DNA from: Chloroflexota bacterium
GTDB lineage: Bacteria; Chloroflexota; Limnocylindria; Limnocylindrales; CSP1-4
Length of the DNA stretch: 64,000 bases
NCBI GenBank assembly: GCA_021786385.1
Contig: JAJYNJ010000074.1
Location: 1-64,000 of the forward strand
Direction: 5' to 3'
Position 1 is the stretch's first letter; every line of letters begins with the position of its first letter. Position numbers and translations under genes: made by a program. A model generated the notes under the pieces. That model made no database searches. It was given only the letters and a program-made list of their open reading frames with translations, and had not been told where the DNA came from. Positions 1-5,792 of the stretch are shown in pieces.

Positions 1-89
1 ACCTGCGCGATCCAGTAGATCACCCCGACGGCGACGAAGATGCCGCCCAGGGCCAGCGGGGCGCGATAACGCACGAGGCGGCGGCGCAC
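1..89 (-). CDS. Small membrane protein of the cytochrome oxidase cluster (3' end beyond window)
   Basis: Only the first 29 codons are inside the window. They read from a GTG at 89 and give an Arg-rich start (MRRRLVRYRAP) followed by one hydrophobic helix (LALGGIFVAVGVIYWIAQ). A strong AGGAGG ribosome-binding site lies 7 bases upstream, just after the stop of the subunit III gene, so it is the next gene of the oxidase operon. Small one-helix or subunit-IV-like proteins are common at this position in aa3 clusters, but too little is visible to name it. The stop codon lies to the left of the window. Confidence 0.5.
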   Translation of the reverse strand, partial: MRRRLVRYRAPLALGGIFVAVGVIYWIAQ

Positions 90-98
90 CGGATCCTC

Positions 99-689
99 CT
101 ACCGCAGCAGGTAGAGGGTCGAGAAGAGCCCGATCCAGACCACGTCGACGAAGTGCCAGTAGAGGCTCACCGCTTCGACGGCCGTGTGGTGGCGGGCCGA
201 AAACTGGCCGCTGAGACCGCGCAGCAGCACGATGCTCATGCCGATGACGCCGCCCAGCACGTGCGCCCCGTGGAAGCCGGTCATCGTGAAGAAGAGCGTG
301 CCGTAGACGCCGCTGCTGATGCCGAAGCCGAGCGTGGCGTAGTCGTAGGCCTGGCCGAGGAGGAAGACGACACCGAGGATGACGGTGACCGTCATGGCGC
401 GCACCATGCCGGTCCGGTCGCCCTTCCGGATCCGCGACACGGCGTACTGCATGGTGAACGAGCTGCTGACGAGGATCACCGTCAGCACGGCCGCGAGGCC
501 CAGATCGAGCTCAAAGCCCTGCGGCGGCCAGACGGTGTGCTCGGCGCGGATGTTGAAGTAGGCGCCGAAGAGGCCAGCGAAGAACATGATTTCGCTGGCG
601 ATGAAGAGGAGCATCCCCACGAGCGCGGTGTCGATGCCGCGCTGCTCCCCGTGCGCGGGGGCGGGAAGTGCCTGCACCTGTGCGGCCAT
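99..689 (-). CDS. ctaE: Cytochrome c oxidase subunit III
   Basis: This is subunit III of an aa3-type haem-copper oxidase, the helical membrane subunit that supports the catalytic core during reduction of oxygen. The 196-residue protein matches the short bacterial form and has several hydrophobic helices, including TALVGMLLFIASEIMFFAG and GFHGAHVLGGVIGMSIV, with the family's conserved GxHGxHV pattern. I chose the ATG at 689 because it overlaps the subunit I stop by one base (TGATG) and because the reading frame further upstream is only the shadow of ctaD. It is co-transcribed with ctaC and ctaD upstream and a small membrane gene downstream. Confidence 0.93.
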   Translation of the reverse strand: MAAQVQALPAPAHGEQRGIDTALVGMLLFIASEIMFFAGLFGAYFNIRAEHTVWPPQGFELDLGLAAVLTVILVSSSFTMQYAVSRIRKGDRTGMVRAMTVTVILGVVFLLGQAYDYATLGFGISSGVYGTLFFTMTGFHGAHVLGGVIGMSIVLLRGLSGQFSARHHTAVEAVSLYWHFVDVVWIGLFSTLYLLR

Positions 690-2359
690 CAGTGGGCTCC
701 CTCGTCGGCGGTTGCCAGGCTTGCTGCGGGCAGTGCTCGCCGGGCGCCATGGCCGTACTTCAGGTCGAAGAGCGGCCGCTCCGAGCGGATCGGCGGCAGG
801 TGGTCGAAGTTGTAGGGGGGCGGTGGACTCGTCGTCGCCCATTCGAGTGTGTAGGCGTCCCAGGGGTCGTCGCCGGCATCACGCGGACCGCGGAGCGTGA
901 CGAAGACGTTCCACATGAAGGGCAGCACGCTGATCGCGATCACGAACGAGCCGATCGTCGCGATCGTGTTGAGGTCGGTCCAGCCCGCGGCGGGCGAGTA
1001 GTCCGCGATCCGCCGCGGCATGCCCTCCAGACCTAGCAGGTGCATGGGGAAGAAGGTGAGCCACGTGCCGATCAGCATCAGCACGAAGTGCACCTTGCCC
1101 AGCCCTTCGTCGAGCCGCGCCCCGAACATCTTGGGGAACCAGTAGTACGCCGCGGCGAAGACGCCGAACATCGTGCCGCCGAAGAAGACGAAGTGGATGT
1201 GGGCGACGATCCAGTAGGTGTCGTGCAGCGCGTAGTCCACGGGCGGGGAGGCCAAGATCGCGCCGTCGAGCCCGCCTACGAGGAAGGTCGTCAGGAACCC
1301 GAGCGCGAAGAGCATCGGGGTGGCGAACGTGATCTTGCCGCGCCACATCGTCGCGATCCAGTTGAAGAACTTGATCCCGGTTGGGACACCGATCAACGAG
1401 GTCATCAGACTGAAGAACGGCAGGTAGACGGCCCCGGTGGTGAACATGTGGTGCGCCCACACGCTGAACCCCAGGCCACCGATCAGCAAGGTGGCGAAGA
1501 TGAAGGCCTTGTAGCCGAAGATCGGCTTGCGGCTGAAGACCGGCACGACCTCGCTGATCACGCCCATCGCGGGCAGGATCAGGATGTAGACCTCGGGGTG
1601 GCCGAAGAACCAGAAGAGGTTCTGCCAGAGGATCGGGTTGCCACCGGAGGCAGGATCGAAGAACGCGCCGCCGAAGTTCCGGTCGATGTAGAGCATGAAG
1701 ACGCCGCTGGTGAAGACCGGGGTCGCCAGCAGGATCAGCAGACTCGTGACCATCACGGTCCACACGAAGATCGGCATGCGCAGTAGCGTCATGCCCGGTG
1801 CCCGCAGCTTGAAGATCGTGGCCAGGAAGTTGATCGAGCCCAGGATCGAGCTCGTGCCGATCAGCAGCAGGGCCACGATCCAGAGATCGGTGCCGCTCCC
1901 CGAGTACTTCGCCTGGGCCAGTGGCGAGTACGAGGTCCACCCCTCGGCTGCGGCTCCCCCGAAGAAAAAGCCGCTGAACATCAGGATGCCGCCCAGCGGC
2001 AACATCCAGAACGAGAGCGCGTTGATGCGTGGGAAGGCCATGTCCGCGGCCCCGATCTGGAGTGGCACCGCGTAGTTGCCGAGGCCCGCGAGAAACGGCA
2101 TCAGGACCAGGAAGATCATGGTGGTGCCGTGCATCGTGAAGAGCTGGTTGTAGGTGCTCGAGTTCACGAACTGCAGGCCCGGGACGGCAAGCTCGCTGCG
2201 GATCACGAGGGCCAACAGCCCGGCGAGCAGGAAGAACAGGAAGCTGTTCGTCAGGTACAGGATCCCGATCTTCTTGTGGTCGGTGGTCGTCAGCCACTCG
2301 TACAGGGCCGAGCGCTGGTAGATGCGCGTTGCGCCCGGGGCGAGGACGGTCGTCGCCAT
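689..2359 (-). CDS. ctaD: Cytochrome c oxidase subunit I
   Basis: This is the catalytic subunit of an A-type haem-copper oxidase; it reduces oxygen to water and pumps protons in the cytoplasmic membrane. The 556-residue protein has the expected metal ligands: His77 (MHGTT, haem a), His254 with Tyr258 in GHPEVY (CuB and the cross-linked tyrosine), the His303-His304 pair (CuB) and His387/His389 in AHIHF (haem a3 and a). The glutamate of GHPEVY marks an A-family rather than B-family enzyme. The ATG at 2359 starts 8 bases after the ctaC stop and gives the usual N-terminus (YEWLTTTDHKKIG). Upstream in-frame sequence is a shadow of ctaC. Confidence 0.97.
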   Translation of the reverse strand: MATTVLAPGATRIYQRSALYEWLTTTDHKKIGILYLTNSFLFFLLAGLLALVIRSELAVPGLQFVNSSTYNQLFTMHGTTMIFLVLMPFLAGLGNYAVPLQIGAADMAFPRINALSFWMLPLGGILMFSGFFFGGAAAEGWTSYSPLAQAKYSGSGTDLWIVALLLIGTSSILGSINFLATIFKLRAPGMTLLRMPIFVWTVMVTSLLILLATPVFTSGVFMLYIDRNFGGAFFDPASGGNPILWQNLFWFFGHPEVYILILPAMGVISEVVPVFSRKPIFGYKAFIFATLLIGGLGFSVWAHHMFTTGAVYLPFFSLMTSLIGVPTGIKFFNWIATMWRGKITFATPMLFALGFLTTFLVGGLDGAILASPPVDYALHDTYWIVAHIHFVFFGGTMFGVFAAAYYWFPKMFGARLDEGLGKVHFVLMLIGTWLTFFPMHLLGLEGMPRRIADYSPAAGWTDLNTIATIGSFVIAISVLPFMWNVFVTLRGPRDAGDDPWDAYTLEWATTSPPPPYNFDHLPPIRSERPLFDLKYGHGARRALPAASLATADEGAH

Positions 2360-2367
2360 GCGATCTC

Positions 2368-3426
2368 CTACTTGACCGTGAGGGTGCCCTGCATGTTGGG
2401 ATGGACACTGCAGAAGAAGGTGTAAGTCCCGGCCGGGAGGGCCGGCACCGCATAACTGACCGTCTGGCCGGGTTGCGCCAGGGGCAGGCCGGTGAAGCGG
2501 ACCTTGCCGGAGCTGTCCCGGATGGCGAAGTTGTGCGGCGCCCCGGCGGTCTTGTTGGTCAGCACCACGGTGAACGGCTGGCCGGCCGACGCTGTGAGGC
2601 TCGACTGATCGAAATTGGTGGTGTTGCTCGCGCTCAGCTGGAGCGTGGGACCGGCCACCGAGCCGCCGGGCGGTGGCGTCGGGGTGGCCCGCGTCTTCGT
2701 CTGCTCGGCCTGCACCCAGGCCTGGAAATCGGCTGGCGTCATCGTGCGTACGGTGAAGCGCATCTGGTAGTGGTCCATGCCGCAGAGCTGCGCGCACTGA
2801 CCGCTGTACGTGACCCCGGCGTCCTTCAGGGTCAGGTCGAAGTTGTTGACCTGCCCCGGGATCACGTCACGTTTGAAGAGGAAGTCCGGCACGTAGAACG
2901 AGTGGATGACGTCGTGCGAGTGGAGCCGCACGTGCACCACTTCGTCGACCGGCAGCACCAGCACAGGTCCCTGGTCGCCGATCCCCGTGTACGAGAGGCC
3001 GTATTGCGGGTAGGCGAACGTCCACTGCCACTGGAAGCCGGTCACGTCGACGGTGAGCTCGGGCTTCGACTCCGCGTCCACCTTGTTGAGCGTCTGCCAC
3101 GAGACGAAGAAGAGGGCCAACACCAGCAGCGTGGGCAGGACGGTCCAGGTGACCTCGAGCAGGTTGTTCCCGTGGGTCTGCACCGGCAGCTCCTCGTCGC
3201 CCTTGCGGCGGCGGTAGCGGATGACGGACCAGAGGATCAGCCCCTCCACCAGCAGGAAAATCGCGACCATCGGGACGAGGAAGACCGTGTACAGGTTCCT
3301 GATGTCGGCGCCCTGGTCGGTGGCGGCGTTGGGTGGGTAGAGGGCACTGCATCCACCGAGGAGTGGCGCAAGGACGACGAGGCCGGCGATCGATGCAACC
3401 GAACGGACGCGCGGCGGCCACTGCAC
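2368..3426 (-). CDS. ctaC: Cytochrome c oxidase subunit II with an extra C-terminal cupredoxin domain
   Basis: Subunit II carries the CuA centre that receives electrons from cytochrome c or a copper protein. The 352-residue product starts at a GTG at 3426 and has a lipoprotein signal ending in LLGGC (Cys26), two membrane helices (about 45-68 and 92-110) and a CuA domain with His175, Cys211, Cys215, His219 and Met222. The usual glutamate between the cysteines is Gln213; only its backbone carbonyl binds copper, so function need not be lost. After a Pro/Thr linker (about 245-260) there is a second cupredoxin-like domain with a complete type 1 copper ligand set: His298, Cys339, His342 and Met345. 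Such a tail is unlike the cytochrome c tail of caa3 oxidases. Confidence 0.92.
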   Translation of the reverse strand: MQWPPRVRSVASIAGLVVLAPLLGGCSALYPPNAATDQGADIRNLYTVFLVPMVAIFLLVEGLILWSVIRYRRRKGDEELPVQTHGNNLLEVTWTVLPTLLVLALFFVSWQTLNKVDAESKPELTVDVTGFQWQWTFAYPQYGLSYTGIGDQGPVLVLPVDEVVHVRLHSHDVIHSFYVPDFLFKRDVIPGQVNNFDLTLKDAGVTYSGQCAQLCGMDHYQMRFTVRTMTPADFQAWVQAEQTKTRATPTPPPGGSVAGPTLQLSASNTTNFDQSSLTASAGQPFTVVLTNKTAGAPHNFAIRDSSGKVRFTGLPLAQPGQTVSYAVPALPAGTYTFFCSVHPNMQGTLTVK

Positions 3427-3592: not shown

Positions 3593-5500
<1,908 letters not shown>

Positions 5501-5792
5501 GTTTGAGCGGGCGTGACCTCGAAGCGAGCGATCAGGTGACGACGAGACGCTGCAAGACGCTACGAGAATGGCGCCGGGCCCGGCGGGATGCCGTGCGACG
5601 AGGACCGCGACCCGGCAGATCTTGTCTTCGCCGGATTGTAGCCGACTCGCCGTCAAGAGCCGTTTGGCGCACTATCAGACGGCCAAAGATCCCGATCTGC
5701 CGGCCGCAGCTGCCCTGCGCCGAGGCTGCCCATCGCTGGGCCGCGCCGCGGCGCGCCGTCGCGGCCCTCCGTCGCGGCTCGGCGCGCGAACG

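Follow-up and report, generated by a model that had tools for sequence, protein, structure and literature searches.

A predicted type 1 copper domain at the C terminus of an A-type cytochrome oxidase subunit II from Chloroflexota

Introduction

In the caa3 oxidase of Thermus, as passages of PMC6696091 describe it, the donor cytochrome c is fused to subunit II. The haloarchaeal B-type oxidases treated in parts of PMC3128077 have halocyanin fused to their subunit IIa. Among the nitrite reductases presented in sections of PMC9358711, HdNiR (2dv6) is a copper nitrite reductase with a tethered type 1 cupredoxin domain, and a tethered azurin domain is described as well. According to passages of PMC8756737, Chloroflexi are known to possess eNOR/sNOR-type NO reductases whose subunit II is a cupredoxin, as well as cupredoxin-bearing nitrite reductases. 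In the open full-text literature that we searched, we found no account of an A-type CoxB that ends in a cupredoxin.

Here we describe such a protein, encoded in a 64,000-nucleotide stretch of DNA from a Chloroflexota bacterium (contig JAJYNJ010000074.1, assembly GCA_021786385.1), referred to below as the window. A first look at the letters of the window had proposed that the tail of its subunit II could be either a built-in blue copper electron donor or a copper-loading module, and we have followed up this original prediction through the protein, its operon, its genome and its relatives.

Results

A subunit II with an intact CuA site and an additional cupredoxin

The coxB product is a subunit II with two transmembrane helices and an intact CuA site, as in A-type heme-copper oxidases (Table 1). 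Three Pfam families, COX2_TM (residues 29-110), COX2 (156-227) and Cupredoxin_1 (269-351; 48.6 bits for a cut-off of 27), exceed their curated cut-offs, and so does Copper-bind (27.7, cut-off 21.2), while the NCBIfam CoxB model TIGR02866 spans residues 40-238 with 183.7 bits, above its cut-off of 147.7. The succession of CuA domain, Pro/Thr linker and cupredoxin-like tail that had been noticed at the outset is therefore borne out within a single ORF, and the residue numbers given for it (His298, Cys339, His342, Met345 and Gln213) are exact in the translation. The CuA ligands are H175, C211, C215, H219 and M222; the only cysteines are Cys26, 211, 215 and 339, CxxCH is absent, and Met345 is the single methionine of the tail. 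The N-terminal LGGC is a probable lipobox.

Table 1. Features of the coxB region in window coordinates
Feature	Position	Strand	Basis or remark
coxB, subunit II with C-terminal cupredoxin	2368..3426	-	352 aa, GTG start at 3426
Probable lipoprotein anchor, signal/lipobox LGGC, Cys26, residues 1-26	3349..3426	-	deduced from sequence
Two transmembrane helices, 37-70 and 88-117 in the model	3076..3318	-	Pfam and predicted structure
CuA domain, residues 122-229	2740..3063	-	Pfam, model, fold match
CuA loop C211-A-Q-L-C215-G-M-D-H219-Y-Q-M222, including Gln213	2761..2796	-	translation and alignment
Pro/Thr linker, residues 246-258	2653..2691	-	translation
Predicted type 1 cupredoxin domain, residues 259-352	2371..2652	-	Pfam, model, fold match, profile
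His298, predicted type 1 copper ligand	2533..2535	-	translation and alignment
Ligand loop C339-S-V-H342-P-N-M345 (C-x2-H-x2-M)	2392..2412	-	translation and alignment
coxA, subunit I	689..2359	-	556 aa, same length in L047
coxC, subunit III	99..689	-	listed ORF 99-842; start near 689 deduced from coxA stop
COX15-CtaA heme A synthase and UbiA-family (heme O synthase-like) fusion	3593..5656	-	Pfam
Small membrane ORF, 67 aa, start only	1..89	-	rest on contig C19

The full CoxB model has the normal subunit II fold in its core (Z 20.9 against Paracoccus 1ar1), and its lowest-confidence block, residues 251-260 with a mean pLDDT of 59, falls in the linker region. As the structure matches listed for this full model were subunit II chains, the tail was also predicted separately. 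A structure prediction had been suggested as a check, and it gives a confident cupredoxin fold (pLDDT 97.3) that is closest to auracyanin A, a Chloroflexus blue copper protein, among the structures matched (2aan, 33% identical; Z 14.2 and rmsd 1.7 for 94 residues); the list of fold matches also includes an azurin with a CTPHPFM loop (2fta, Z 13.0), an amicyanin-type loop according to the title of that entry, which the C-x2-H-x2-M loop of the CoxB tail resembles. A profile built from the tails matches auracyanin A, copper nitrite reductases, amicyanins and plastocyanins, and the tail ligands fall on the PHN and C..H..M motifs when aligned to plastocyanin and related chains. On these grounds the tail is a predicted type 1 (blue) copper cupredoxin, a Greek-key beta-sandwich with the full His-Cys-His-Met set.

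Conservation of the copper ligands

Our alignment of the fusion comprises 26 rows, the window and 25 of the 33 fetched loci; the remainder were L048, a near copy of L047, L075 and L076, which are cut or split, and five f2 loci with a tail of another kind. The residues H298, C339, H342 and M345 are invariant in 26/26 rows, as are the CuA ligands, and the four tail ligands are also found in L048, L075 and L076. Since this invariance holds in tails that are only 35-86% identical to that of the window, the conserved ligand set, as judged from the alignment, is more than chance. The loop reads C-x2-H-P-x-M in 16 of the rows and has one to three extra residues before the methionine in the other 10. 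Comparison with L047, the closest relative (84% identical), gives nearly equal dN/dS values of 0.11 (tail) and 0.12 (core). An assembly or frame artefact is ruled out, the fusion being one ORF in every row of the alignment; one of these rows, L072, comes from a 7-contig, 99%-complete genome (G059).

The replacement of the usual CuA-loop glutamate by Gln213, to which attention had been drawn, is a true observation and a minor natural variant. Glutamine occupies this position in three rows of the alignment (the window, L047 and L054), and it is present in 2/79 readable CoxB loops among the genome-contig matches listed (L153 and L156). We therefore rejected Gln213 as the mark of a special CuA site; with such natural recurrence in the sequences compared, it needs no special explanation.

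A second cupredoxin in the same operon

The heme A synthase-UbiA fusion lies directly upstream of coxB, and the coxA translation contains GHPEVY and TGIKFFNW, candidate proton-channel or active-site motifs of subunit I. The window opens within the operon: its initial 127 bases (minus strand) are shared exactly with the start of contig C19, which carries the operon onward. There, C19:253-1515 encodes a protein of 420 aa that has six hydrophobic segments and, at its C terminus, a cupredoxin ending CDVHPNMNGTLVVK. Its membrane part scores 28.9 with COX3 (cut-off 23.8) and remains below the cut-off for subunit IV, a family that the six-helix protein of the relative L053 matches above cut-off (36.9 versus 26.9). 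From these matches and from its position in the operon, we infer that the six-helix protein is an oxidase subunit. Its cupredoxin, the second one in this operon, is new here. Of the 20 f1 loci of L047-L076 that extend at least 4 kb downstream of CoxB, 19 encode a second cupredoxin, located on the same strand at a distance of 3.2-3.9 kb downstream, and L049 is the sole one where it was not found; it is missing in both f4 loci, and of two f2 loci it is present in L079 and not in L077.

Distribution of the fusion and the slot that it occupies

A search for the same fusion in relatives had been suggested as a check, and the fusion does recur in them. Counted by hand among the matches listed for 61 genomes (that of the window and its relatives), CoxB with cupredoxin occurs in at least 29, namely 27/37 genomes of f1, the family to which the window belongs, and 2/2 f4 genomes; the other 10 f1 genomes lack the tail among the matches listed, and this type of loop was not found on CoxB in the matches listed for 19 f2 and three f3/f5 genomes. 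The coxB gene is split into two frames in G020 and cut in G026. In 400 genomes of the phylum, a hand count of the listed matches that span both CuA loop and tail gave at least 22/33 f1 genomes and 7/7 f4 genomes. Outside the class, such matches occur in at least six genomes (one f82, one f90 and four f19), with His, Cys, His and Met all in place; the f90 tail is a fragment at a contig end.

The f2 genomes, of 0.8-1.2 Mb, have a different cupredoxin as CoxB tail, with a C-x4-H-x4-M loop in three of the five loci read (L070, L071, L077, L078 and L079). The tail of L070 matches the Pfam sulfocyanin family at 21.7, just above the cut-off of 21. Part of the tail, ligands included, is deleted in L078, and in L079 the domain is encoded by a separate ORF and not lost.

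Genome contigs were scanned with the CoxB alignment, and at least 80 CoxB loci were kept. The listed loci divide into 28 with a CxxCH tail, 4 with a cupredoxin (L086-L089), 46 with a short tail, one with a long tail of neither kind and one without a readable CuA motif. The cupredoxin therefore occupies the slot of the caa3 cytochrome c. One of the four, L087, is identical to genome G033 of our relatives set over 12,019/12,019 compared bases. Another, L088 (JAICUY010000029.1), is on a contig labelled Steroidobacteraceae, perhaps through mis-binning or transfer, and groups with the f4 rows in the tree described below.

A quick tree of 123 CoxB cores (44 with cupredoxin, 28 with CxxCH, 51 with neither) contains seven changes of the cupredoxin state. 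These include shortened or broken f2 ORFs, and for this reason we limit our claim to the f19 tails and to the L196/L207 group, both of which stand apart from the main cupredoxin group. In the tree, the f19 tails cluster with L121, a CoxB whose tail has CxxCH (support 87); this suggests that, on these core sequences, the cupredoxin tail was gained more than once. L207 (G024:C1), L196 (G344) and L197 (G415) represent a kind of CoxB with LQC..LCG in the CuA loop, and they have a cupredoxin tail too.

Candidate partners in the genome

With 95.8% completeness of the window's genome, a soluble cytochrome c may have been missed. In searches with PF00034 and PF13442, only two loci exceed the cut-offs, both of them in bc-type clusters. 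On contig C54, a two-heme cytochrome has as neighbours a QcrA-like Rieske protein, a cytochrome b and the genome's second CoxB, which has no tail; this is a bcc:aa3-like set. On contig C5, cytochrome c and a C-terminal cupredoxin share one ORF (Cytochrom_C and Copper-bind above cut-offs), which adjoins genes for a b6-like cytochrome b, a cytochrome b C-terminal part, a Rieske protein and an FAD/Fe-S oxidoreductase. This b6f/bc-like cluster with split cytochrome b (L081:1894-8525) also encodes a Kelch protein whose N-terminal part includes a hydrophobic segment. The ligand loop of the cytochrome c tail on C5, C-x4-H-x3-M, is longer than and unlike that of CoxB, so no matched pair of tails is seen in this genome; among relatives, the tail of the cytochrome c gene is of the long-loop kind in some and of the C-x2-H-P kind in others. 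A single ORF contains both the heme and the cupredoxin motifs in 11/12 loci, the window's own included, and in 17/20 further loci, the others being fragments or cut.

We then related the two fusions across the 37 f1 genomes by hand tally of the matches listed, where a strong match (E < 1e-30) to the cytochrome c-cupredoxin protein of C5 stood for the second fusion, the tail itself being read in some genomes only. Both are present in 26 genomes and neither in eight; CoxB alone is found in one (G010) and the cytochrome alone in two (G025 and G032), which corresponds to a Fisher p of 1e-5, uncorrected for kinship and genome incompleteness. Seven of the eight genomes without either fall in two genera, and several of them are 60-80% complete. 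Of the genomes that belong to the same genus as the window, three possess the two together and five lack them both. The f4 genomes have the CoxB tail and only weak cytochrome c-cupredoxin matches among those listed.

Free cupredoxins are encoded as well: an apparent lipoprotein on C4 with a CAIHPFM loop, and an apparently secreted protein on C37 with the loop CQVPGHAAQGM. A Sco protein, above its family cut-off, is encoded elsewhere in the genome, and a search for PCuAC (PF04314) found none. Other cupredoxin-like sequences were noted: an ORF of 179 residues on C24 (L045), whose CNTCCGG...TMHG resembles a CuA-type loop, and two Cupredoxin_1 matches apparently without the full type 1 ligand set, fused to an apparent P-type ATPase on C16 (L044) and beside one on C2 (L039).

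Likeness of tails within genomes

Tails of the C-x2-H type were compared at three positions: CoxB (B), cytochrome c (C) and the six-helix subunit (D), the last class being assigned by exclusion, and long-loop tails, among them the cytochrome c tail of the window's genome, being left out. Within a genome, mean identity is 58/52/52% for B-C, B-D and C-D, compared with 49/43/45% between genomes. In each of nine permutation tests, the within-genome likeness is attained by no more than 2 of 20,000 permutations, uncorrected for phylogeny and with G384 entered twice in all comparisons except the last permutation set. The result holds without G020 and near-duplicates. The tail from the same genome is the top match in only 3/16 (B-C), 7/22 (B-D) and 4/12 (C-D) cases.

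In G020, the coxB and cytochrome c tails align over 365 columns with 358 identical bases (98% in DNA). The two tracts (L076:7511-7874 and L227:1542-1905) are on one contig, about 17 kb apart. By its DNA, this looks like a module copied between coxB and the cytochrome c gene, as after gene conversion.

Discussion

Taken at the level of sequence and model, the locus probably encodes a caa3-like A-type oxidase in which a tethered type 1 copper cupredoxin has replaced the fused cytochrome c as electron donor. Of the two roles that the original prediction left open, that of built-in donor is now the better supported, because the tail sits in the CxxCH slot with a full set of type 1 ligands and because cupredoxin tails are also found on a cytochrome c complex that has no CuA to load; the copper-loading role has been weakened. 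While domain order, ligands, fold, family conservation and the three cupredoxin-bearing proteins are read from sequence or model, the route of the electrons is what we infer from them. A bc/b6f-type complex would oxidize quinol and pass the electrons through Rieske protein and heme c to its own cupredoxin tail; this tail, or a free cupredoxin such as those on C4 and C37, would hand them to the oxidase tail or tails, from which they would reach CuA, heme a and O2. With Pro/Thr linkers, the tails would be free to move from partner to acceptor and back. As both the oxidase and the complex that likely feeds it carry copper tails, tethered copper proteins probably wire this respiratory chain.

It is tempting to go further and to propose that, beyond heme c, all electrons that reach O2 via this oxidase pass through tethered type 1 tails (those of cytochrome c, CoxB and the six-helix subunit), that no soluble carrier is needed, and that cells keep the tails compatible by gene conversion between the two complexes. 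We put forward this extended scheme as a tentative one, in which we place rather low confidence.

The free cupredoxins of the genome weigh against our preferred explanation, for they could be the true carriers. In that event the donor of the tail would be a free cupredoxin or another protein instead of the cytochrome c-cupredoxin complex, and the shared tails would reflect a common stock of modules. This alternative differs from our preferred explanation in the donor only, and the confidences that we attach to the two overlap. The apparent lipoprotein and the apparently secreted cupredoxin speak for it; the co-occurrence of the CoxB tail with the cytochrome c-cupredoxin among the f1 matches listed and the apparent exchange of tails between coxB and cytochrome c genes speak against it, and we regard a donor of this kind as unlikely, though worth serious attention.

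Alternatively, the tail might mainly dock the oxidase onto its partner complex, or onto a free cupredoxin, with copper that is incidental or lies off the route to CuA. The recurrence of seemingly exchanged tails on both complexes would agree with such docking, and so would the position of the linker as the least confident part of the model. In the nitrite reductase with a tethered azurin domain, according to sections of PMC9358711, the two type 1 coppers lie more than 15 Å apart in the crystal, and for that reason a tether is no proof of direct transfer. Four copper ligands invariant throughout the alignment are, however, more than docking would need, which makes a docking or supercomplex domain improbable.

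That the tail binds copper in order to load the CuA site of its own subunit is very improbable: it is tethered beside CuA, and PCuAC is missing from the search results of this genome, but a Sco protein is encoded, the tail has the Cys-His-His-Met type 1 set with its single methionine instead of the PCuAC site quoted as H(M)X10MX21HXM in passages of PMC6696091, a cupredoxin tail also belongs to a cytochrome c whose bc-type cluster has no CuA, and the second CoxB of the genome does without a tail. Membership of the PCuAC family itself was rejected, PF04314 being absent from CoxB at E <= 0.1 and the genome search negative.

Our preferred explanation, a tethered blue copper donor, suggests that a blue copper domain can stand in for the cytochrome c tail of caa3 oxidases, and that a quinol-oxidizing complex and an oxidase can carry exchangeable electron-carrier tails. 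In this group of Chloroflexota, it would offer a clear case for testing whether respiratory carriers are tethered or diffuse freely, and it would sharpen annotations in which such proteins are named plain oxidase subunit II.

Known systems share some of these features with the present protein and differ in others. The eNOR/sNOR enzymes are likewise heme-copper enzymes whose subunit II involves a cupredoxin, but there the cupredoxin fold is subunit II itself, whereas in the present protein it has been added after a CuA domain that is intact. Tethered copper nitrite reductase chains (9cck, 6hbe) have a terminal domain with a CxxHPxM loop like that of the tail, and are not oxidases. The auracyanins of Chloroflexus and Roseiflexus (2aan, 1qhq, 6kol) are among the nearest solved structures for the tail; they are separate proteins, and it is the CoxB tail that has the short C-x2-H-x2-M loop. 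In the halocyanin-IIa fusion, a blue copper partner is covalently joined to an oxidase subunit as it is here, but that system is archaeal and B-type, with the fusion to a small one-helix IIa, whereas in our case the domain is C-terminal to CuA on a two-helix CuA subunit. The likeness to caa3 oxidases (e.g., 2yev) extends to the two helices, the CuA site and the linker, as well as to the slot in which the C-terminal redox domain is placed, and the CoxB model superimposes on 2yev chain B with Z 18.0 and rmsd 3.6 over 243 residues. The Chloroflexota protein differs from them in that it lacks CxxCH, its redox domain is a predicted type 1 cupredoxin, and a second such domain is carried by another protein of the operon.
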